Shown: in pieces, positions 3,969 to 22,093 of the stretch
Layout: each line of letters opens with the position of its first letter
Numbering within the stretch: position 1 is the first letter of the stretch
The notes under the pieces: generated by a model
What the model was told of the DNA's origin: nothing
What the model saw: the letters and a program-made list of their open reading frames with translations, nothing else
Database searches by the model: none
Source: Gemmatimonadales bacterium
Lineage (GTDB): Bacteria; Gemmatimonadota; Gemmatimonadetes; Gemmatimonadales; GWC2-71-9
Direction: 5' to 3'
Length of the DNA stretch: 38,725 nucleotides
NCBI GenBank assembly: GCA_025928645.1
Contig: JAICJD010000012.1
Location: 1-38,725, forward strand
Position numbers and translations under genes: made by a program

Positions 3969-4019
3969 GTTAGACAGAGAAATCGGATTGAGCGCCAAAG
4001 GCAAGGCTTTTGAGGGGAT

Positions 4020-4640
4020 CTAGCGCGGCCCGCGACGCATCCGCACGGGGTCCGGCCGGCCGAACCGCTCCTCGCGCCAGGGATCGCCCCGCATGTGGTA
4101 GCCGTTCCGCTCCCAGAACCCCGGATCGTCCTCCCCCAGCAGCTCGAAGCCGGTCACCCACTTGGCGCTCTTCCAGAAATAGAGGTGCGGCACCAGCAGC
4201 CGCACCGGGCCGCCGTGCTCGGGCGCCAGCGGCTCGCCGTCGAACGAGAGGGCGAGGAGGTTGGCCGGCCGATCGAGATCGCCGAGAGGCAGATTGGTGG
4301 TGTAGCCCTGTTCGGCGTGCACCAGCGCGAACGCGGCGCCGGGCCGCACCCCGGCGCGGGCCAGCACCGCCTCGACCGGAATGCCGGCGAAGGTGTTGTC
4401 GAAGCGGGTCCACCGCGTGACGCAGTGAATGTCGCAGGAGGTTTCCCGCCGCGGCATCGCCATCAGCTCCTCCCAGTGCAGAGACAATGGCCGCTCGACG
4501 GCGCCGGTCACCGCGAACCGCCAGGTGCGGAGATCCACCGACGGGACGATTCCGTAGTGCAGCACCGGCCACTTTCTGGTCACCACCTGCCCGGGCGGGA
4601 GCCTCGGATGCCCCGGGTCGCGGACGTCGATACGGTCCAT
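4020..4640 (-). CDS. Sulfite-oxidase-like molybdopterin oxidoreductase
   Basis: The protein has 206 residues and belongs to the oxidoreductase molybdopterin-binding family (YuiH/YedY-like single domain). The motif SCDIHCVTRW carries Cys73, the expected thiolate ligand of molybdenum. Supporting conserved stretches are LHWEELMAMP, the GGPVRLLVPHLYFWKSAKW block and the FWERNGYHMRGDPW end. No Tat or Sec signal and no C-terminal dimerisation domain is present, so it is the short cytoplasmic type, whose substrate and partner are generally unknown. GGAGG seven bases before the ATG supports the start. It follows lipB by 13 bases in the same operon. Confidence 0.9.
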   Translation of the reverse strand: MDRIDVRDPGHPRLPPGQVVTRKWPVLHYGIVPSVDLRTWRFAVTGAVERPLSLHWEELMAMPRRETSCDIHCVTRWTRFDNTFAGIPVEAVLARAGVRPGAAFALVHAEQGYTTNLPLGDLDRPANLLALSFDGEPLAPEHGGPVRLLVPHLYFWKSAKWVTGFELLGEDDPGFWERNGYHMRGDPWREERFGRPDPVRMRRGPR

Positions 4641-12389: not shown

Positions 12390-13595
12390 TTAGAAGAACA
12401 GCATCATGCCGACCGAGCCCTGGTCGGTCTTGGCGCCCTTGACGCCGTCGGTGAAGTTGTCCACGTGCCCGTATTCGAAGACCCAGCGGAGCGACTTGCT
12501 CCACTTGTAGGCGACCTGGCCCACGATCGCGCGGTTCTTGAGGATCTCCGAGTCGGTGCCGTCGGCGGTCTTGTCGTCGTCGGTCCGCTTCAGGTGGTTC
12601 TCGCCGAAGCTGCCGCCGATGAGGAACTTGCTGTTGGGCGGGCTGTAGGTGACCTGGCCGATGTAGCCGAACGAGTTCCGGCCGTTGCCCGCGACGTCCA
12701 CGCCGCCGTTGTCGAAGTTGCCGCCGCCCACGATGCCGTCGCCCGAGAGCAGGAAGCCCATGCCCTTGGCGAAGAAGCCCGACCCGGTGAGCGCGAAGCC
12801 CGACACGTCGAGCGTGATGCCGCCGCCGCCGCCCGCGCTGCTGAGCGACTCGGTGGTGCCGGCCACGCCGTCCTTGGCCGTCTGCGCGGCGCCGTTCACG
12901 AACAGCTTGAAGTTCCCGGTCTCGCCCATCTTGGCGCTGTAGTTGAGCTCGGCCTCGACCCGGGGGAGCTGCAGCACCGTGTACGGGCCTTCACGCAGCC
13001 CGTCGAACAGACCGATGCTGAGCTGCGCGGGACGTCCGGCCGGCGTCGAGTAGGTAAGCTGCGGGCGGAAATCGGTGTACAGGTAACCGTAGCCGATGCG
13101 GCCGAGGGTGGTGCCGCGGCCGATCGGGCCGCCGGCCACGCCGACGCCGAGCAGGGTCATGTCGGTGAGGATGTTGCCGCGCTGGTACAGGCCCAGCTCC
13201 TTACCCATGAGCAGTTGCCCCCAGCTGCCGCCGGCGGTCAGGTAGACCTGACGCATGTCGATCTGGGCGCCCGCGGCGTCCGTGCCGAAGAAGCTGGCGT
13301 TGTGCCCGCCCATCTGCACTTCCGGCGCGAATCCGAAGTGCACGCCGAGGTCCAGGTTCTCCTCCTTGCCCTTCGCGTCGAACACCGCGAAGGCGGGGAG
13401 GAGGCCGGTGCCCACGCTCAGATCCTTCCCGGTGGTCACCGAGCCGGCCTTGGCCTGCTGGTAGATGTAGAACGCGTTCACGTTGCCACTGAACGTGAAG
13501 GCCCAGCCGTTGCTCATCTGCATCGTGAGCTGGGCTTCCGCGGCGTTCACCGCGCCGAACGCCAGACCCAAGCACAACAGTGCGACTTTCTTCAT
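12390..13595 (-). CDS. Porin-like outer membrane beta-barrel protein
   Basis: The protein has 401 residues. The signal peptide is MKKVALLCLGLAFGAVNAAEAQ. The mature chain has alternating hydrophobic/polar strands rich in Gly, Tyr and Phe (NGWAFTFSGNVNAFYIYQQ, RIGYGYLYTDFRPQ, NFKLFVNGAAQ, LRWVFEYGHVDNF) and ends in a terminal Phe (SVGMMLFF), the usual signal for outer-membrane insertion. The pattern fits a trimeric-porin-like or DcaP-like barrel, but I cannot name a subfamily. The ATG at 13595 is chosen for its signal peptide and the upstream GGGAGAA; an in-frame extension to 13706 would destroy the signal. It implies a diderm cell. Confidence 0.82.
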   Translation of the reverse strand: MKKVALLCLGLAFGAVNAAEAQLTMQMSNGWAFTFSGNVNAFYIYQQAKAGSVTTGKDLSVGTGLLPAFAVFDAKGKEENLDLGVHFGFAPEVQMGGHNASFFGTDAAGAQIDMRQVYLTAGGSWGQLLMGKELGLYQRGNILTDMTLLGVGVAGGPIGRGTTLGRIGYGYLYTDFRPQLTYSTPAGRPAQLSIGLFDGLREGPYTVLQLPRVEAELNYSAKMGETGNFKLFVNGAAQTAKDGVAGTTESLSSAGGGGGITLDVSGFALTGSGFFAKGMGFLLSGDGIVGGGNFDNGGVDVAGNGRNSFGYIGQVTYSPPNSKFLIGGSFGENHLKRTDDDKTADGTDSEILKNRAIVGQVAYKWSKSLRWVFEYGHVDNFTDGVKGAKTDQGSVGMMLFF

Positions 13596-13680
13596 AGGTG
13601 CTTCTCCCTCAGTGTAAGAATTGACCGCCAACGACAGCCAACCTTCGGGACGTGCCTGCACCAGCAAACGGGGGCCGCGC

Positions 13681-14094
13681 CTAGCGCGCGGAGTCGGTCG
13701 GACCAATGAGCGATGCGTTCACCTCCCAGAAGGCGTACCAGAGGGGGAGCGGACGGTGGTTCTCCCACCAGTAGTAGTCGTTGACGCGGCTGACGTACAC
13801 GTTGGCGGCATAGGGGAATCGGAACCCCCCGTTCCGATACAGCGCCGCCATCGTGTCCCGGAGCCCGGCCGAGTCGGCCGTCGTGCAGCCGGCCCTGCAC
13901 CCCGTTGGAAGCGCCTGCGCAAACCCGGCACCCGCGAGGAACCCGTTCGCATAGGCCACCTGGGCCGCGGGCGCCAGCGCCTTCCATTCCGTTCCGTCCT
14001 GCAGGCTCCAGTGGCGCTCCGGCGCGCCCGCGCTCGCGCGGCCCACCAGGATCCCGGCGGCCGCCACGGCCGCCCACCACCACCGACCAGTCAC
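13681..14094 (-). CDS. Membrane-anchored small protein of unknown function
   Basis: The protein is 137 residues from the GTG at 14094. One hydrophobic segment (about 5-20, WWWAAVAAAGILVG) anchors or exports it. The remainder has three Cys-free helical stretches and a Cys pair (TGCRAGCTT), then an aromatic tract VSRVNDYYWWENHRPLPLWYAFWEVN. I recognise no family. An upstream ATG at 14133 lies in the loop of a strong hairpin (14113-14154), which argues for the GTG start. It sits downstream of the PQQ dehydrogenase on the same strand, with that hairpin between them. A partner role is possible but unproven. Confidence 0.6.
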   Translation of the reverse strand: MTGRWWWAAVAAAGILVGRASAGAPERHWSLQDGTEWKALAPAAQVAYANGFLAGAGFAQALPTGCRAGCTTADSAGLRDTMAALYRNGGFRFPYAANVYVSRVNDYYWWENHRPLPLWYAFWEVNASLIGPTDSAR

Positions 14095-14112
14095 GTTCCG
14101 TCCCAAAGGAAT

Positions 14113-14154
14113 CGGCCGGCAGGCGTGCCCCATACACGGGGCCCCTGCCGGCCG
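14113..14154 (-). terminator. Strong hairpin after the PQQ dehydrogenase gene
   Basis: The outer arms 14113-14123 (CGGCCGGCAGG) and 14144-14154 pair perfectly, and an inner stem GCCCC/GGGGC (14127-14131 with 14138-14142) continues it. It begins ten bases past the TAA of the dehydrogenase gene. No T run follows. It may partly uncouple expression of the small downstream gene and sits over a competing ATG at 14133. Confidence 0.6.
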
Positions 14155-14164
14155 TGAGCGACGA

Positions 14165-15826
14165 TTACTTCTTCGCCTTGGCCGGCAGGCCGAAGACCAT
14201 GACGGCGTTGCCGAGCGGGAAGTTGATCTGGAAATTCCCGCCGCAGGCGACCTCGATGAACTGCTCGCCACCGAAGGTGAACGTCATCGGGGCCGAGTTG
14301 CATCCGGCGCCGGCGTTGAACTGCCACAGCAGCTTGCCGGTCTTCGAACTGTAGGCGTTGAAGTTGCCGTTGCCTTCACCGGTGAAGGTGAGGCCGCCTG
14401 CCGTGCTGAGCGAGCCGCCCATCATCGGCTGGGGGACCTTGTTCTGCCAGGCGATCTTCCCGGTCTTGAGGTCCACGGCGGAGAAGAGGCCGTACTGCTC
14501 CTCGCCCGGAATGGCGACGAAGGCCGAGCCGAGCCACAGCCGGCCCTTTTCCCACGGGGCGCTGTGCACCTTGTAGTGCATCGGCTGGTGCAGCGCGGCG
14601 ACGTAGGCGTACCCCAGCGTCGGGCTGATCGAGATCGGCGACCACTCCGAGCCGCCGTTGGCGCCGGGGAGCATGCGGGTGCCGTCGGGCGTCGGCAGCG
14701 CGAACATGTTCTCCTGGGGCACGAAGTTGTCGCTCCGCCGGACCAGCTTGCCCGTGGCCGCGTCGACCACGTAGACCCAGCCCGTCTTGCCCGCGTGCAC
14801 CACGACCTTCTGCCCGCCCACGGTCGCGACGACCGGCGGCGAGACCGCGTCGAGGTCCCAGACGTCGTGCGGCACCGTCTGGTAGTACCACTTGGTCTTG
14901 CCCGAGGTCGCGTCGATGGCCACGATGCAGTCGGTATAGAGATTGTCGCCCGGACGCAGGCTGCCGTCGAGATCGGGCGAAGGGTTGCCGACGGCGAGGA
15001 AGATCGTGTTGCTCGCCTTGTCGTAGGCCGGCGTCATCCACACGCCGCCGCCGCCCCGGGTCCACGCGTCGGCGTTCTTGGCGCTGTCGCCCTTCTCGGC
15101 GGTGACGTCGCGGTGCAGGTCCGCGCCGTCCGGCGTCTTCGGGGTCCAGGTGCCATACCAACCGTTCGGCGCCTTGTCGTCGAAGGTCGAGTCGCCCTTG
15201 GGGGCGGGAATGGAGTACCACTTCCACACAGGATCACCGCTGACCGCGTTGAAGGCCTGCACGAACCCGCGGATGCCGTACTCGCCGCCCGAGACGCCCA
15301 CGATCACGTTGTCGCCGATGATGAGCGGCGCGTGGGTGATGCTGTAACCCGCGGCCGGGTCGGCCACTTCCTTGTCCCACATGACCTTGCCGTCGGCCGC
15401 ATTGAGCGCGACCAGATGGGCGTCCAGCGTCCCCATGTACAGGTGCGCGCCGCCGTGGATGGCCACACCGCGGTTGTTGGGGCCGCAGCAGAAGATCGTG
15501 GTGCCGAGCTTGTGCTCGTAGCGCCATAGCTCCTTCTTGGTCGCGAGATCGTAGGCGATGGCGGTGTTGTACGGGGTCGTCACGTACATCTTGCCGCCGG
15601 TCACGATCGGCGTGTTCTCGAACGAGCCGAGCTTCGCGATCCCGGTCTGGAAGATCATCCGGGGCACGAGCTGCGCGACATTCGAGGTGTTGATGGTCTT
15701 GAGTTGGGAGTACCGCTGGTTCCAGTCGTTACCGCCGTACGTCGTCCAATCGCCGCTTTGGGCCGCGACCGGCGCGGCGACGGCAAGGAGCACCGGGACC
15801 ACCATCCAACGCGTGCTCATGCGCAT
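14165..15826 (-). CDS. PQQ-dependent (quinoprotein) dehydrogenase, periplasmic
   Basis: The protein has 553 residues with a signal peptide ending in VAAQ (residue 23). It is an eight-bladed propeller quinoprotein of the alcohol/methanol dehydrogenase type. Cys113-Cys114 in FCCGPNNRG match the adjacent-Cys disulfide of PQQ enzymes. Glu182, Asn281 and Asp305 fit the metal and catalytic positions, with DVWDLD downstream. Repeated W-motifs such as DLATKKELW and DGKVMW mark the blades. The residue two after Asp305 is Thr307, not Asp, which argues for calcium rather than lanthanide. No cytochrome domain is fused, and no PQQ synthesis genes are in the window. The substrate is unknown; a reduced PQQ-binding-like protein is the alternative. 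Confidence 0.88.
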   Translation of the reverse strand: MRMSTRWMVVPVLLAVAAPVAAQSGDWTTYGGNDWNQRYSQLKTINTSNVAQLVPRMIFQTGIAKLGSFENTPIVTGGKMYVTTPYNTAIAYDLATKKELWRYEHKLGTTIFCCGPNNRGVAIHGGAHLYMGTLDAHLVALNAADGKVMWDKEVADPAAGYSITHAPLIIGDNVIVGVSGGEYGIRGFVQAFNAVSGDPVWKWYSIPAPKGDSTFDDKAPNGWYGTWTPKTPDGADLHRDVTAEKGDSAKNADAWTRGGGGVWMTPAYDKASNTIFLAVGNPSPDLDGSLRPGDNLYTDCIVAIDATSGKTKWYYQTVPHDVWDLDAVSPPVVATVGGQKVVVHAGKTGWVYVVDAATGKLVRRSDNFVPQENMFALPTPDGTRMLPGANGGSEWSPISISPTLGYAYVAALHQPMHYKVHSAPWEKGRLWLGSAFVAIPGEEQYGLFSAVDLKTGKIAWQNKVPQPMMGGSLSTAGGLTFTGEGNGNFNAYSSKTGKLLWQFNAGAGCNSAPMTFTFGGEQFIEVACGGNFQINFPLGNAVMVFGLPAKAKK

Positions 15827-16235
15827 GGACACACACTCCCTTTCAGCTGGACCTTCGGTGCGGAGACGGACCCTGGCCGGTCCGCTGGCGGTCGAAGGCA
15901 TGCCCCTCGACCCGTCTGTCCACTCCGTCCAGGCGGGCTGCCGCCGTGGACGCACCCCGACGATCGCGCGGCACCGGTCTGTCTGGCCCCGGCCCCTGAT
16001 CCGGGCATGGGGCGAACCTGCGGAGAGGCATCCGTGCGCTGAGGCAAGACGCCCTGGCGGGCGCCATCGAAAGGGGGTGGTAAGTGTCGAGCCGGTTACA
16101 ATCTGCGAGGGCTCGGGCGGGCGTCAAGACCCCAGAATCCCGACACTTCGCGGCTCCGGCTCCGCTCCGCACATGCAACTCTATTCGATGCAAATACTTG
16201 CGCCCAGGACCCGATGTAAGAATTTGCGTCGGTCC
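15827..16235. other. 409-bp intergenic region upstream of the PQQ dehydrogenase
   Basis: No convincing gene is found on either strand. AAAGGGAG before the dehydrogenase ATG is a likely ribosome binding site. Reading toward that gene, TTGACG occurs at 16127-16122 and is a weak -35 candidate without a good -10 partner. Positions 16173-16232 hold ATGCAA at 16173 and an imperfect 26-base-period direct repeat (CGATGCAAATACTTGCG at 16186, CGATGTAAGAATTTGCG at 16212), unusually AT-rich here. These may be regulator sites for one of the flanking genes. No riboswitch fold was recognised. Confidence 0.5.
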
Positions 16236-16458: not shown

Positions 16459-17976
16459 CTACCGCTTGGCCGCCACCGTCAACGCCTCCTGCTCGCGGGC
16501 CAACTCTTCATCTGACATATAGTAGCGCTCGTCCACCGGCCGGACAGCCAGGTTGCAGAAGAGTCCGACCACGAGCAGCCCGACCAGGACGTACATGGTG
16601 ACGTTGTAGGCCTGCGCGGGCGGGATGCCCCGGTCGATCTGGTACTCGCGGATGTAGTTGACCAGGACCGGGCCCAGGATCCCGGCCGCCGACCAGGCCG
16701 TCAGGATCCGTCCGTGAATCGCCCCTACGAACTGGGTGCCGAAGATGTCCGCCAGGTAGGCCGGGATGGTGGAGAACCCGCCGCCATACATGCTGATGAT
16801 GATGCAGAACAGGATCGCGAACACCGCCACGTGCCCCGCGCGGCCGGCCTGGGGTGCGGAAGCGTAGAGCACGATGCCGAGCGCGAAGAAGACGAAATAG
16901 GTGGTCTTCCGCCCGATGTAGTCGGACAGCGTCGCCCAGCCGATGCGTCCCCCGATGTTGAACAGGCTGAGCAGCGCCGCGAATGCCGCGCCGATGGTGG
17001 CGAGCTGGGCCTTCTGCGCATCGGTGAGCTCGCGCAGCGGCACGCCGGCCATGTGGATGAGGCGGCCGCCGAACACTTCCTGGATCATGGGCGAGGCCAT
17101 CCCGATGACGCCGATTCCGGCGCTCACGTTCAGCCACAGCACGGCCCAGAGCAGCCAGAACTGCGGCGTCTTCGACGCCACGTCCACGTGAACGTGCCGG
17201 CCGGTGATCATCGGCCGGCGGAGCGCCGCGTGCTCGGTGGTGAGCGCGCGGTGGCGCGGCACGCCCAGGGCAGGCGACCAGCCCGGGGGCGGCACCCGGT
17301 AGCCGAACGCGCCCGCCATCATCGCCACGAAGTAGATGATCCCCATCGTGATGAATGTCTCCTTCACGCCCACCGAGGTCGGCGTCGCGAAGTGCTTCAT
17401 CAGGATGTCGGCGAGCGGCGCGCCGATCATGGCCCCGCCGCCGAAGCCCATGATCGCCATGCCGGTCGCCAGGCCGCGCCGGTCGGGGAACCATTTGATC
17501 AGGGTCGACACCGGCGAGATGTACCCGAGCCCGAGGCCGCACCCCCCGACAACCCCCGAGCCGAGCCAGAGTAGCCAGATCTGGTGGAGCTGCACGCCCA
17601 GCGCCGAAATCAGGAACCCGCCGCTCCAGCAGAACGCGGCGACGACGCCGGCCTTGCGCGGCCCGGCGTGCTCGAGCCAGCGCCCGAACATCGCGGCTGA
17701 CGAGCCGAGGACCACGAAGAAGAGGGTGAACATCCAGCCGAGGGTGCTGATCTTCCAGTCGCAGTCGGTGGCGACCAGGCTCTGGAAGAATCCCATGCTG
17801 GCCGGACAGGGAACGGACTTGGTGATGCCGATGGCGCGGCTGAGCGGCAGCCAGAACACGCTGAAGCCGTACGCCATCCCGATGGACAGATGGATGGCGA
17901 GCGCGGCCGGAGGAACCAGCCACCGGTTGAAGTCGGGTCCCGCGACGATCCGCTCCCTCGACAGTAGGCCCGCCAT
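16459..17976 (-). CDS. OFA-family (oxalate/formate antiporter-like) MFS transporter
   Basis: The protein has 505 residues with about twelve transmembrane helices. It shows the OFA-type start FNRWLVPPAALAIHLSIGMAYGFSVF, an A-loop motif variant GRWLEHAGPRKAGVV, GLGYISPVSTLIKWFPDRRGLATG (a family hallmark) and GGRIGWATLSDYIGRK in the second half. An insert with several Cys (about residues 55-75, KSVPCPASMGFF and VATDCDWK) lies between helices 1 and 2. The carried anion is not predictable; oxalate and formate are only the best studied family substrates. ATG at 17976 is favoured, with AGGAG seven bases upstream; a GTG precedes it by one codon. It is divergent from the sulfocyanin-like gene. Confidence 0.92.
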   Translation of the reverse strand: MAGLLSRERIVAGPDFNRWLVPPAALAIHLSIGMAYGFSVFWLPLSRAIGITKSVPCPASMGFFQSLVATDCDWKISTLGWMFTLFFVVLGSSAAMFGRWLEHAGPRKAGVVAAFCWSGGFLISALGVQLHQIWLLWLGSGVVGGCGLGLGYISPVSTLIKWFPDRRGLATGMAIMGFGGGAMIGAPLADILMKHFATPTSVGVKETFITMGIIYFVAMMAGAFGYRVPPPGWSPALGVPRHRALTTEHAALRRPMITGRHVHVDVASKTPQFWLLWAVLWLNVSAGIGVIGMASPMIQEVFGGRLIHMAGVPLRELTDAQKAQLATIGAAFAALLSLFNIGGRIGWATLSDYIGRKTTYFVFFALGIVLYASAPQAGRAGHVAVFAILFCIIISMYGGGFSTIPAYLADIFGTQFVGAIHGRILTAWSAAGILGPVLVNYIREYQIDRGIPPAQAYNVTMYVLVGLLVVGLFCNLAVRPVDERYYMSDEELAREQEALTVAAKR

Positions 17977-18050
17977 CACGTGTCTCCTGGGTTAAGTTCC
18001 GGCTGTCACGCAACGCAAGCTACGTCCGACGGGGAGAGGGGGCCAGAGCG

Positions 18051-18611
18051 ATGCCGCGACTGTGGAGGCCTCGCGCGATCCGTACTGCCGGACCGACGCT
18101 CGGTCTCGTGGTCGCGTCGGCGTTCGCCTCGGCGCAAAGCGGCCCCCCCGATTCGTCAGCCACCGCCAGCCCCGCGGCGGAGACACCGGCGTGGCTGGTA
18201 TCCGACTCCGGTGCCCGAAGCGTCTCGTTCAGTCTCGAGGTGACTCGCGGTCCCGAGGGGCCGGCCCTGATCAACGGCCGCCGCGAGGGCGGGCTTCAGA
18301 TCGTGGTGCCACTCGGCTGGACCGTGCAGTGGGACTGGCACAACGCCGATTCCGCCGCGCACAGCCTGGTGGTGATGGTGGAGCGCGAGAAGCTGCCGAC
18401 CGAAGGCGGTCATCCGGCTTTCACCAACGCGATGACCCGCATGGTGTCCGCGGGACTTCCGGCCGGCGGCCACGACCGCACGACGTTTACCGCCGAGGAG
18501 GCCGGGTGGTACTGGCTGCTCTGCGGCGTGCCGGGACATGCCATCGCGGGCGAATACATCGGCCTCCGTATCGACCCCGAGGCGAGGACCGCCTCCGTGA
18601 AGGCCAAGTAG
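18051..18611 (+). CDS. Sulfocyanin-like blue copper protein
   Basis: The protein has 186 residues. An N-terminal hydrophobic stretch ending near ASAQ (29) is a signal peptide or membrane anchor. The cupredoxin fold is shown by GWTVQWDWHNADSAAHSLVV and the C-terminal copper loop WLLCGVPGHAIAGEY. The expected type 1 copper ligands are His104, Cys158 and His163. The axial Met usually four or five residues later is absent; Glu168 stands there. CGVPGH is characteristic of sulfocyanin-type proteins, which carry single electrons outside the cell membrane. GGAGAGGGGG precedes the ATG. Which oxidase or dehydrogenase it serves is unknown; the PQQ enzyme and cydAB are in the window but not adjacent. Confidence 0.85.
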   Translation: MPRLWRPRAIRTAGPTLGLVVASAFASAQSGPPDSSATASPAAETPAWLVSDSGARSVSFSLEVTRGPEGPALINGRREGGLQIVVPLGWTVQWDWHNADSAAHSLVVMVEREKLPTEGGHPAFTNAMTRMVSAGLPAGGHDRTTFTAEEAGWYWLLCGVPGHAIAGEYIGLRIDPEARTASVKAK

Positions 18612-18622
18612 CCGCCGTTTCT

Positions 18623-19816
18623 TCAGCCTTTCTCCGCCAACAACCGCTCGATCTCCCGCGCGAACTCTTTCACCAGCCGCGCGTGCTGGGCTCCCATGGC
18701 AGGTCCGTAGAACCCCGCGTGAACCAGGCGCACCCGCCCGTCTCGTCCAACGAAGACGGTCGTGGGGAACGAGGTGAAGCCGTGGAGCTGTGGCAGGGTG
18801 GCCTGGGCGGCGTCCACATCGTTGATGCCGGCCAGCAGCAGCGGAAACGGGATGTGAAACTTGTCCCGGTATCGCCGGACCTGCCGCGCATCGACCGCCG
18901 AGTCGCCGGTGACCTCGTAGGCGAGCCCGACGATCTCGAGCCCGCGCGAATGGTACTTCCGATACAGGTCGACCAGCACGGGCGCCTGGTCGTGGCAGGT
19001 CGGGCACCAGCTTCCGAAGATGTCCACCAGAACAACCTTGCCCCGGAAGCGCGGATCCCGCGCCGTCACCATCCGGCCGTCGAGATCGGGGAAGGCGAAC
19101 CGGAATGGCGCGCTCGTGTCCGCGCCCGTGATCTCGGTGGGGCGCTTGAGATGCGGCGCGCCCGTGCTGCGCAGCGCGATCCACGGCGTCTCAGTGCGGA
19201 GGCCCGCGTGGAACACGCCGCGCAGCGTGTCGCCGTGGCAGGCGCCCGCGAGGAGGTAGACGAAGGACCCGTCGAAGTGGGCGAGGGTGAAGCTGTCCCC
19301 GGCCATGCGGCCGGCGAAATGCCCGTAGTCGCCCGTGTTCGAGATCATCGTGCCCTCGAGCCCCTGCGCGCCGTTGCGGAACTCGAAGACCCGCGGGCTC
19401 GAGCCGAAGTCGGAGAAGAACGTCGCGTCCCACCGGCCGACCAGCCACGCGGGCGCCGGGGTGACCGGCCACCGGCCGCGTCCGGCGCGGAACGGAATCA
19501 CTCTCGGGCCGCGGTTCCCCACGTTGCGGAAGGTTCCCGTCAGCGAGTCGCCCGCGAGGCGGGCCGTGATGGTCGCCGCGTAGTCGGCGATGCCGAGCGT
19601 CAGGCTGTCGCCATGGAGCTCGACGGTCGAGAGCGGCTCGCAGCGGGTGCCGTTGCACAGCCGGCCGGAGCGCCCGTGCGATCCCCGCGCGAGCTCGAGC
19701 GTGAACGGCAGCATGCCGCCCTCGAGATCCAGCACCGCGCGCCACGGCCCCTCCGGCGCCGGCGCGGCCGCGAGGCCGGCCAGGAGCACCAGCCATGGCC
19801 ATCCAGCCCTTCTCAC
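18623..19816 (-). CDS. TlpA/ResA-like thioredoxin with extra N-terminal domain
   Basis: The protein has 397 residues. A short hydrophobic N-terminus (WLVLLAGLAAAPA) exports or anchors it. Residues about 25-245 form a beta-rich domain with repeated GDS-T turns (HGDSLTLGIADY, AGDSLTGTFRN, AGDSFTLAHF, HGDTLRGVF) of unknown function. The C-terminal thioredoxin domain starts near 250, with WCPTC at 270-274 and a cis-proline segment SFPTTVF. Such proteins reduce disulfides or help cytochrome c maturation outside the cytoplasm. The GTG at 19816 overlaps the upstream stop as GTGA. It is the last gene of the thiO-sigma-anti-sigma operon and could answer oxidative or envelope stress. Confidence 0.86.
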   Translation of the reverse strand: MRRAGWPWLVLLAGLAAAPAPEGPWRAVLDLEGGMLPFTLELARGSHGRSGRLCNGTRCEPLSTVELHGDSLTLGIADYAATITARLAGDSLTGTFRNVGNRGPRVIPFRAGRGRWPVTPAPAWLVGRWDATFFSDFGSSPRVFEFRNGAQGLEGTMISNTGDYGHFAGRMAGDSFTLAHFDGSFVYLLAGACHGDTLRGVFHAGLRTETPWIALRSTGAPHLKRPTEITGADTSAPFRFAFPDLDGRMVTARDPRFRGKVVLVDIFGSWCPTCHDQAPVLVDLYRKYHSRGLEIVGLAYEVTGDSAVDARQVRRYRDKFHIPFPLLLAGINDVDAAQATLPQLHGFTSFPTTVFVGRDGRVRLVHAGFYGPAMGAQHARLVKEFAREIERLLAEKG

Positions 19817-20667
19817 GGCGCGAGCTCGCTCGCCCCCGCGCTGTCGGCGTGGTAGCGCTCGCCCGCGGTCACGGCGGCCGGGATGGTGTTGCCCTGCCAC
19901 GGCGCCGGGCAGGCGTAGGCGGAGCTGTAGGCGCAGAATGGATTGCGGGCCCGGTTGAAATCGAGACGGTACCGGCCGCGGGGCGCCGGCACGAGCGACA
20001 CGAAACGGCCGGCGGGGTAGGTGGTGCGCCCGTTGGTCCCGTCGCGAAAAAAGATCTCCAGCTCGGACTCTTCGCCCCCCGGCGAAGGCAGGCGGCGCAC
20101 CCGCAGGCGGGTTCGCGCGCCGCCCATCGAAACGATGACGCTGCCCGCCTCCGCGGCCTCGACCTCGATGCCGTCCACGCCGAGCAGGCGGACGGTGCCG
20201 CGGTGCTCCGGCGGCAGCAGTCTTCCGACGAACGCGAACCCCGGGGTGGCGGGATAGTACGCGGGCTGCTTCGCGGCGTGGCGCGGGCCGAAGACGGTGA
20301 GCACCTCGCGGCCGGCGGGCCCGTCTACCGTCAGGGTGTACCCGCGGAGCCGCACCGGCAGCCCACGTGGCATGAGACGGGAGACGCCGGGACCCTCGAG
20401 GCCGATGCCGCCGCTGCGCGGCGCCACGATGTGTGCGGGAACTCCGGCCAGCGGGATGTCGGCGTCGGCCGGGCCGAGCCGGACGCCTCGGCCGATCGGC
20501 TGTTGGGCGACGGTCGCGAGTGGGGAGGTGGGCGCCGCCGCGAGCCACCGCACGAAGTCGGCGCGCTCGCGTGCGATCTCGCCCTGCGCGCTGGCCCGAC
20601 CGGTCGCTGCCGCCAAGGCCAGCGACATGATGGCGGCGACGCGCATGGCGCGGGCGACTCGCCTCAC
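19813..20667 (-). CDS. Exported DUF1684 protein
   Basis: The protein is 284 residues from the GTG at 20667, which overlaps the anti-sigma stop as GTGA; an ATG at 20646 is a second choice. MRVAAIMSLALAAATGRASAQ is a clear signal peptide. The C-terminal part has the DUF1684 hallmark RYRLDFNRARNPFCAYS followed by YACPAPWQGN and IPAAVTAGERY. Upstream conserved pieces are RERADFVRWL, GFAFVGRLLPPEHR and the DGTNGRTTYPAGRFV region. The molecular function of DUF1684 is unknown. Being between an anti-sigma factor and a thioredoxin suggests it belongs to the regulated output of the sigma factor, which is inference. Confidence 0.88.
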   Translation of the reverse strand: MRRVARAMRVAAIMSLALAAATGRASAQGEIARERADFVRWLAAAPTSPLATVAQQPIGRGVRLGPADADIPLAGVPAHIVAPRSGGIGLEGPGVSRLMPRGLPVRLRGYTLTVDGPAGREVLTVFGPRHAAKQPAYYPATPGFAFVGRLLPPEHRGTVRLLGVDGIEVEAAEAGSVIVSMGGARTRLRVRRLPSPGGEESELEIFFRDGTNGRTTYPAGRFVSLVPAPRGRYRLDFNRARNPFCAYSSAYACPAPWQGNTIPAAVTAGERYHADSAGASELAP

Positions 20668-21476
20668 GAGCGCTCGAGCGTGCCGGTCAGGACGATCGGG
20701 GTCGTGGGCCTCGACGAGCCGGCTTCCGGCTCGACGGTCACGGCCGCGGCGGTGAGAACGCCCCCCTCGGGCACCGGGACCCGCTCGATGCTGGCGGTTC
20801 CGTCGGACGCCGGGCGGAACGTCACCGAAGGCACCGGCACGCCATCTCTGATGAACCACAGCTGATATGCCTTGCCTCCGGGAATCGGCTTGAGGCGGAA
20901 TCCGTGCACCACGGCCAAGTGACGGCCGCGGTTCCAGAACAGCTGGATGCCGGGCTCGGGGTCCCCGTGGGCGGTGAGCTGGAACATCTCGACGCCGGGC
21001 TCGAGCAGGGCGTCGAGCATCGCCTGACGGGCGCTGAGCTGCTGGCGGGTGCCGGCGAGCAGCGCCTCGCGCGCCCGAAGCTCGGACGCCATCGCGCCGA
21101 GCCGGCCGCGCGCGGAGATCAGACTCGCGCAGAGCCCGACCGCGAGGAGCAGGCTCGCGACGAGCGCGATCCAGGCCGCGCGTGAGGGACGCGCCTGGGC
21201 GACAGCCGAGCGGCCGGGCTCGGCCCCTGTCCCGTCGCGCTGCTGTTCCTGGCCTACCCGGGCCAGCACGCGCTCGCGCAGCGCGCCGTCCGGGGCGGCC
21301 TCCGTCCCACCCAGCGCGAGCAGCGCGGCGACTTCGCGGTACTCGGCCACCTCACGCCGCGCCTCGGGCGACGTGGTGAGGAACGCCTCGAACCGCCGCA
21401 CCTCGTCGGGCGGGAGGGCGCCGAGCGCGTATGCGGCGGCGAGGTCGCGCGGCGATTCCCGCTCGGGGCCCGTCAT
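20664..21476 (-). CDS. RskA-type membrane anti-sigma factor
   Basis: The protein has 270 residues. Residues 1-57 form the sigma-binding helical domain (RDLAAAYALGALPPDEVRRFEAFL is the RskA-type start), without a zinc His-Cys motif. A single transmembrane helix spans about 100-121, and a coiled-coil with several Arg/Gln (RGRLGAMASELRAREALL) runs to about 160. The external RskA-like C-terminal domain (about 165-268) includes GIQLFWNRG, LKPIPGGKAYQLWFIRDG and VPVPEGG. It should hold the sigma factor at the membrane until a signal, probably proteolysis, frees it. Its ATG overlaps the sigma stop (ATGA), so the pair is made together. Confidence 0.93.
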   Translation of the reverse strand: MTGPERESPRDLAAAYALGALPPDEVRRFEAFLTTSPEARREVAEYREVAALLALGGTEAAPDGALRERVLARVGQEQQRDGTGAEPGRSAVAQARPSRAAWIALVASLLLAVGLCASLISARGRLGAMASELRAREALLAGTRQQLSARQAMLDALLEPGVEMFQLTAHGDPEPGIQLFWNRGRHLAVVHGFRLKPIPGGKAYQLWFIRDGVPVPSVTFRPASDGTASIERVPVPEGGVLTAAAVTVEPEAGSSRPTTPIVLTGTLERS

Positions 21477-22093
21477 GTGCCACGCTCGAAGTAGAAGGGA
21501 CGGAGCGCCTCGCGCAGCTTCTCCATGCCGAGGCGCACCCGCGTCTTCACCGTGCCGAGTGGCTGCTGGAGCCGCTCGGCGATCTCCGACTGCGACAGGC
21601 CTTCGAAGTACGCCAGCTCGATGGCCTGCCGCTGCGATGGGCTGAGCCCGTCGAGCGCCCGGCGCACCTGCCGCCGTCGCTCGTCCTGATCGAGCGATGC
21701 CGCGGGATCGGCGAGCAGGTCTCCCATCGCGGGCGGCGCGTCCTGCCGGTCGGCCGCGGCCCCGGCCGCGCCGACCGCTCGCTCGCGCCGACTCCTCGCG
21801 CGAACGAGGTCGAGCGCCCGGCTCCGCGCGATCGTGGTGAGCCATCCCGCGACCGAGCCGCGGCCGGCCTCGAATCGCGGGGCGTCGCGCCACACCTGGG
21901 CAAAGGCGTCGACCACGACTTCTTCGGCATCCGCGCGCCCGCCCACTACCCGATACGCCACCGCGTAGAGCACGGCGCCGTACCGGTCGTACAGGAGTCC
22001 GAGCGCCCGTTCGTCTCCTCCGGCCGCCCGCGCGACCAGCGCGCCATCCGTGACGTCGGCCGAGGGTGAGAGGCGGACAGGCGACCGGTTCAC
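21473..22093 (-). CDS. ECF sigma factor (SigK-like)
   Basis: The protein has 206 residues, normal for an extracytoplasmic-function sigma factor. Region 2 (about 25-100) includes LYDRYGAVLYAVAYRVVG, DAEEVVVDAFAQVWRDAPRF and GSVAGWLTTIARSRALDLVR. Region 4 (about 140-195) includes LDGLSPSQRQAIELAYFEG and the helix-turn-helix LSQSEIAERLQQPLGTVKTRVR. The partner encoded next is of RskA type, so it is best placed in the SigK-like group. GTG at 22093 overlaps the thiO stop (GTGA). Release by the anti-sigma factor should redirect RNA polymerase to stress genes, possibly its own operon. Target promoters are not identified. Confidence 0.94.
   Translation of the reverse strand: MNRSPVRLSPSADVTDGALVARAAGGDERALGLLYDRYGAVLYAVAYRVVGGRADAEEVVVDAFAQVWRDAPRFEAGRGSVAGWLTTIARSRALDLVRARSRRERAVGAAGAAADRQDAPPAMGDLLADPAASLDQDERRRQVRRALDGLSPSQRQAIELAYFEGLSQSEIAERLQQPLGTVKTRVRLGMEKLREALRPFYFERGT

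Follow-up and report, generated by a model that had tools for sequence, protein, structure and literature searches.

A conserved glutamate at the axial position of a sulfocyanin-like cupredoxin genetically linked to a PQQ quinoprotein in Gemmatimonadales

The cupredoxin gene and its neighbourhood

The window (the whole stretch of DNA analysed, 38,725 nucleotides from a Gemmatimonadales bacterium) contains, in this order, a PDH and lipoate gene set, the gene pair g12.4 and g13.7, a PQQ quinoprotein gene, an MFS transporter gene, a cupredoxin gene, a TlpA-like gene and an ECF sigma/anti-sigma pair. The cupredoxin is an open reading frame product of 186 amino acids (18051–18611, plus strand) with an N-terminal export signal recognised by eye. 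The PQQ quinoprotein dehydrogenase (14165–15955, minus strand), which was identified by family and structure-sequence matches and whose true start is uncertain, has a vicinal Cys-Cys pair and a WDLD motif. Its gene set includes g13.7 (13681–14271, minus strand), a small conserved protein, and g12.4 (12390–13706, minus strand), by eye a probable outer-membrane barrel protein, both without a Pfam match. The two travel with the quinoprotein, and the larger one (g12.4) is perhaps a substrate channel. The MFS transporter (16459–17979, minus strand) is of the lactate/oxalate type, with scores below the NCBIfam cut-offs, and lies between the quinoprotein and the cupredoxin. A TlpA/ResA-like thiol-disulfide oxidoreductase (18623–19729, minus strand) is the convergent neighbour of the cupredoxin, and near it is the ECF sigma and RskA anti-sigma pair (20664–22069), a possible regulator of the locus. 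CxxCH motifs, the mark of c-type cytochromes, are limited in the window to CPTCH of the TlpA protein and one in a 123-codon frame that resembles chance.

The copper loop and its axial residue

The cupredoxin scores 47 bits against the Pfam SoxE domain (PF06525), above the cut-off of 21. Its score for the NCBIfam sulfocyanin equivalog (TIGR03094) is 42.8 bits, far below the cut-off of 168.4, so it has the SoxE domain but does not qualify as a strictly defined sulfocyanin. The translation of the frame contains HSLVVM and, further on, GWYWLLCGVPGHAIAGEYIGLRI. The copper loop CGVPGHAIAGEYI (18522–18560, plus strand), with Cys158, His163 and Glu168 in the spacing C-x4-H-x4-E, was assigned by the reading of the frame, the SoxE alignment and a profile match to rusticyanin. 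The initial annotation had numbered these three residues correctly and had put the loop at 18524–18575, a span that starts 2 bases late and ends beyond it. The first histidine ligand is His104 of an AAHS motif (codon at 18360–18362, plus strand). The codon of Glu168 is GAA (18552–18554, plus strand), as recovered with pattern strings for the Glu loop. The codon is GAA in four and GAG in five of the nine genomes that carry this form (Glu-type), and the residue is unchanged. His104, Cys158, His163 and Glu168 are invariant in 9/9 Glu-type proteins.

A family alignment, which the initial annotation had called for, has no gaps from the Cys to the axial position, and the axial column is E in 8/8 Glu-type and M in 18/18 Met-type SoxE proteins. 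A SoxE profile of 24 sequences matched rusticyanin (1rcy) with an E value of 1.2e-7 and placed the axial column on the Met of CQIPGHAATGMF. The same profile also aligned with auracyanin and nitrite reductases. His143 and Met148 are the corresponding rusticyanin positions as named in PDB titles and the accessible text of PMC10654088. By alignment, Glu168 falls exactly on the axial Met column, at the place of Met148 of rusticyanin.

The possibility that a different Met serves as the axial ligand had also been raised; near the loop, no other Met that could play this part is conserved. The sole invariant Met in the nine Glu-type proteins is Met109. It was rejected as a candidate, being five residues after His104 on the same predicted strand and, as inferred from strand geometry, about 17 Å along it. 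An AlphaFold2 model built from four sequences had a mean pLDDT of 65, with loop residues 124–128 below 50. Foldseek with this weak model gave rusticyanin (1rcy) as the top match with a TM score of 0.43. VIA-align 2 gave nitrite reductase as the top match (Z 8.6, with many ties), and rusticyanin was absent among the best 50 matches. Because of the low pLDDT, the model backs only a predicted cupredoxin fold and not the geometry of Glu168.

Distribution of the Glu form

The Glu-type profile was searched in 395 genomes of the phylum Gemmatimonadota and gave matches in 126, most of which were judged by score and not by residue-by-residue reading of their SoxE. Nine genomes stand apart at 215–280 bits, and the next best score is 120. 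They belong to three genera of one family: G000 (the window), G003, G005, G006, G007 and G008 to one genus, G012 to a second, and G097 and G098 to a third. The axial residue is Glu in all nine, and Met in all of the 21 next-best loci whose residue was read. When the Glu loop was searched as a degenerate DNA pattern, 288 genomes of the order gave 9 matches, which were the same nine, and 394 genomes of the class gave 8, all among these nine (G005 is outside that sample). A contig scan, which reaches close relatives only, found three loci, all in Gemmatimonadales, and a scan of viral contigs gave no match.

When two truncated rows were dropped from 55 distinct SoxE rows, the axial residues of the 53 readable ones were 9 Glu, 41 Met, 1 Gln and 2 His. 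The other readable Gemmatimonadota sequences thus have Met without exception (41/41). In the maximum-likelihood tree of the 53 rows, the nine Glu-type proteins form one clade with support 100/100 and a stem of 1.63 changes per column; the axial column was kept in the alignment as one of 160 columns. The nine proteins are 48–71% identical in pairs and have 45 invariant positions. At least one Met-type paralogue was observed in 8/9 Glu-type genomes, and none was found in G098.

It had been claimed that Glu168 stands where relatives have Met, and this agrees with the 41 of 50 readable sequences of the phylum. The proposal that Glu might simply be normal in the clade holds narrowly, for the nine-member subfamily, but not for the phylum. 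Its invariance in that subfamily marks Glu as a trait under selection there and not an accidental change, and the argument for an altered site chemistry stands.

Other axial residues were observed outside the phylum. Seven plasmid records of the outside-phylum sample matched, and Glu was present in none of the three that were read. A sulfocyanin-like protein on a plasmid of Deinococcus sp. NW-56 (L129:3854–4333), located directly downstream of nirK, has an axial Gln, which is another natural axial change in the superfamily. SoxE-like proteins of Sinorhizobium meliloti pSymA (L130, near 4001–4450) and a Microvirga plasmid (L131:3917–4507) have the loop CARQTHLMDGHW with an axial His and no Pro-Gly.

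Association with the PQQ quinoprotein

The closest structures to the quinoprotein of the window are the quinoprotein ethanol dehydrogenases 6zcv, which we take to be PedH, and 6zcw. Its WDLD motif aligns with WDFD of these two and with WDFS of 1flg, where Ser is found at the +2 position instead of Asp. Asp at +2 marks lanthanide-dependent PQQ dehydrogenases. PqqE is above the cut-off in 8/9 Glu-type genomes, and G098 has a fragment.

Within the family, 36 quinoprotein matches were listed at an E value of 1e-100 or better; the one in G098 reads through one TGA. For 19 of the 36, a SoxE gene lies within 3 kb, and the chance expectation is about 0.1 (1.7 SoxE genes per 3.3 Mb). Seven of these SoxE genes are Glu-type, all on the opposite strand, and 12 are Met-type, all on the same strand. 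In the window, too, the Glu-type gene lies on the strand opposite the quinoprotein and outside its operon. Conversely, 12 of the 41 Met-type SoxE genes listed in the family have a quinoprotein neighbour. The remaining 17/36 quinoproteins lack a SoxE gene nearby; among them is a second paralogue present in three genomes. This second quinoprotein (G000:C221:2237–3862, G008:C121 and G012:C49) is about 73–74% identical to that of the window and has no SoxE neighbour in the stretch seen. In G077, a quinoprotein, a Met-type SoxE, g13.7 and g12.4 are found in a row, which is the gene set of the window around a Met-type protein. G097 has a Met-type gene ahead of g12.4 in its LipA block, and its Glu-type gene is on a separate short contig.

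As far as the contigs reach, the eight other Glu-type loci keep the gene order of the window, save for losses of MFS or TlpA. The MFS gene is missing in G005 and G006 and the TlpA gene in G005, and both genomes keep the quinoprotein and the Glu-type cupredoxin. The two genes are both present at the conserved locus in eight genomes (G000, G003, G005, G006, G007, G008, G012 and G098). Three genomes (G001, G004 and G013) lack both but retain MFS and TlpA. Among the informative genomes, none has only one of the two at the conserved locus. G009 shows only that the quinoprotein site is empty, G002 and G077 carry no information for this count, and the locus is truncated in G097.

In G004, a relic of the Glu-type cupredoxin lies between MFS and TlpA. 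Its middle part is deleted and it goes out of frame after CGVP; the locus has no quinoprotein. Against the window protein the relic scores 38.5 and 32.7 bits, against others up to 45.1, and the best of 20 shuffles gave 22.3. No quinoprotein relic was found in the intervals of G004, G001, G009 and G013. In G013 the quinoprotein is located elsewhere, beside a Met-type gene, and MFS and TlpA are separated by 3.5 kb of other genes. This insertion (L144:7667–11223) encodes ferritin-like or desiccation-type proteins and two small plastocyanin-like domains, as judged by eye. The joint absences may represent one or two events only; the losses in G001 and G004 may be a single event, and the case of G013 is of a different kind. 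The Glu form and the quinoprotein are genetically linked.

Discussion

We consider it probable (about 0.6) that the Glu-type cupredoxin is a dedicated periplasmic electron acceptor of the PQQ quinoprotein and that its axial carboxylate lowers the potential. This reading builds on three observations: where the Glu is located, that it is fixed in one clade, and that the gene is genetically tied to the quinoprotein. From here we infer copper as the metal, Glu168 as a bound ligand, an electron-transfer role with the quinoprotein as partner, and a lowered potential. The exported sulfocyanin-like carrier would be reduced by the PQQ quinoprotein alcohol dehydrogenase encoded next to it and hand the electrons on within the periplasm. 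The copper ligands would be His104, Cys158 and His163, and Glu168 would take the place of the axial Met. The carboxylate would give a potential below that of the Met paralogue, a greener or redder site and pH-dependence. In azurin, Asp or Glu at the axial position lowers the potential by 50–120 mV (accessible text of PMC12071310), and the Glu-type protein is therefore expected to have a lower potential than the Met-type carrier of the same cell. More tentatively, and with clearly less than even confidence, these proteins may be a natural subfamily with a fixed axial carboxylate and a low-potential, proton-coupled green or red site. Such a subfamily would act as the electron acceptor dedicated to a PQQ alcohol dehydrogenase, probably of the lanthanide type, and copper would stand where methylotrophs use cytochrome c.

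The site itself allows other readings. Glu168 may occupy the axial place without ligation, with copper three-coordinate or bound by a backbone carbonyl or water and the Glu acting as an outer-sphere charge or proton relay. The loop model is too unreliable to speak against this, and the axial residue varies naturally in the superfamily (Gln in Deinococcus, His in Sinorhizobium and Microvirga). However, the reach of Glu is about equal to that of Gln, a known axial ligand in stellacyanin (accessible text of PMC4059628), and we regard a non-ligating Glu as rather doubtful. A site for zinc or another metal, or a copper store, where electron transfer was lost and Met changed to Glu as redox copper was no longer needed, appears improbable. 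The crystallised Met150Glu nitrite reductase contains zinc according to the title of 2afn, and the long stem branch of the Glu clade would fit a change of function, but both His, the Cys and many core residues are invariant in 9/9 proteins and genomes keep the gene together with that of a redox enzyme. On paper, the His2-Cys-Glu ligand set would also suit a nitrosocyanin-like red copper enzyme that acts on nitrogen oxides. This reading is very improbable, as the ligand order and the loop differ, nitrosocyanin is absent among the sequence matches and no nitrogen-oxide genes are present among the window genes examined.

The partner is a separate question. The link to the quinoprotein could reflect hitch-hiking in a conserved block, the real partner being a terminal oxidase, the adjacent TlpA system or iron oxidation. 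The block is indeed syntenic over about 19 kb, and Fe(II) oxidation has been suggested for Gemmatimonadota sulfocyanin (accessible text of PMC10367259). But the block survives in G001 and G004 minus these two genes while TlpA and MFS stay, and G005 keeps both genes without TlpA and MFS. Hitch-hiking is thus unlikely, and a carrier dedicated to the quinoprotein is preferred.

A literature search, which covered mainly titles and the beginnings of abstracts, mostly outside subscription papers, yielded no natural cupredoxin described with an axial Glu, no paper joining sulfocyanin, axial ligand and glutamate, and none on a sulfocyanin-quinoprotein pair. As of 2014, the one red cupredoxin characterised in detail was nitrosocyanin, according to the accessible text of the AcoP paper (PMC4059628). 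In bioinorganic chemistry, axial carboxylates are known mainly from mutants. Cells that carry both this natural, conserved Glu form and a Met paralogue offer a natural experiment in the evolutionary tuning of copper potential. For the PQQ dehydrogenases of Gemmatimonadota, the link between cupredoxin and quinoprotein suggests a copper-based route for electrons, as an alternative to the iron-oxidation role mentioned above.

Comparison with known copper proteins

In nitrosocyanin, a trimeric red copper protein, the Glu comes from a distant hairpin elsewhere in the chain and the loop is CxxHxxxxH. The initial annotation had drawn a parallel to it, and a carboxylate as copper ligand would be the likeness. 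The parallel is loose because the origin of the Glu and the loop spacing (C-x4-H-x4-E here) are different, and an identity with nitrosocyanin was rejected on the loop, the ligand order and the sequence matches. The nearest chemical analogue is the engineered azurin Met121Glu, whose type 1 copper site has an axial Glu; that protein is a laboratory mutant, whereas the Glu here is natural and conserved. The phytocyanins stellacyanin and mavicyanin have the C-x4-H-x4 loop in common with the window protein, which gave a sequence match to mavicyanin with Glu168 aligned on its axial position. Their axial residue is Gln, with a side-chain amide, instead of Glu. Plant phytocyanins have a disulfide.

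Rusticyanin has the same loop spacing and ligand order, and three of the four residues in the frame of His85, Cys138, His143 and Met148 match. Met148 is replaced by Glu168, and the overall identity is low. Sulfocyanin (SoxE, PF06525; TIGR03094) has the Pfam domain, the His/Cys/His ligands and the C-x4-H-x4-axial loop in common with the window protein. Sulfocyanin is further characterised by a blue copper spectrum and a membrane terminal oxidase as partner. It differs in its axial Met; the window protein is below the equivalog cut-off and has the quinoprotein as its apparent partner. As the axial Met is replaced in spite of this likeness, with ligand spacing alike and fold probably alike, the window protein is a variant within the SoxE kind.
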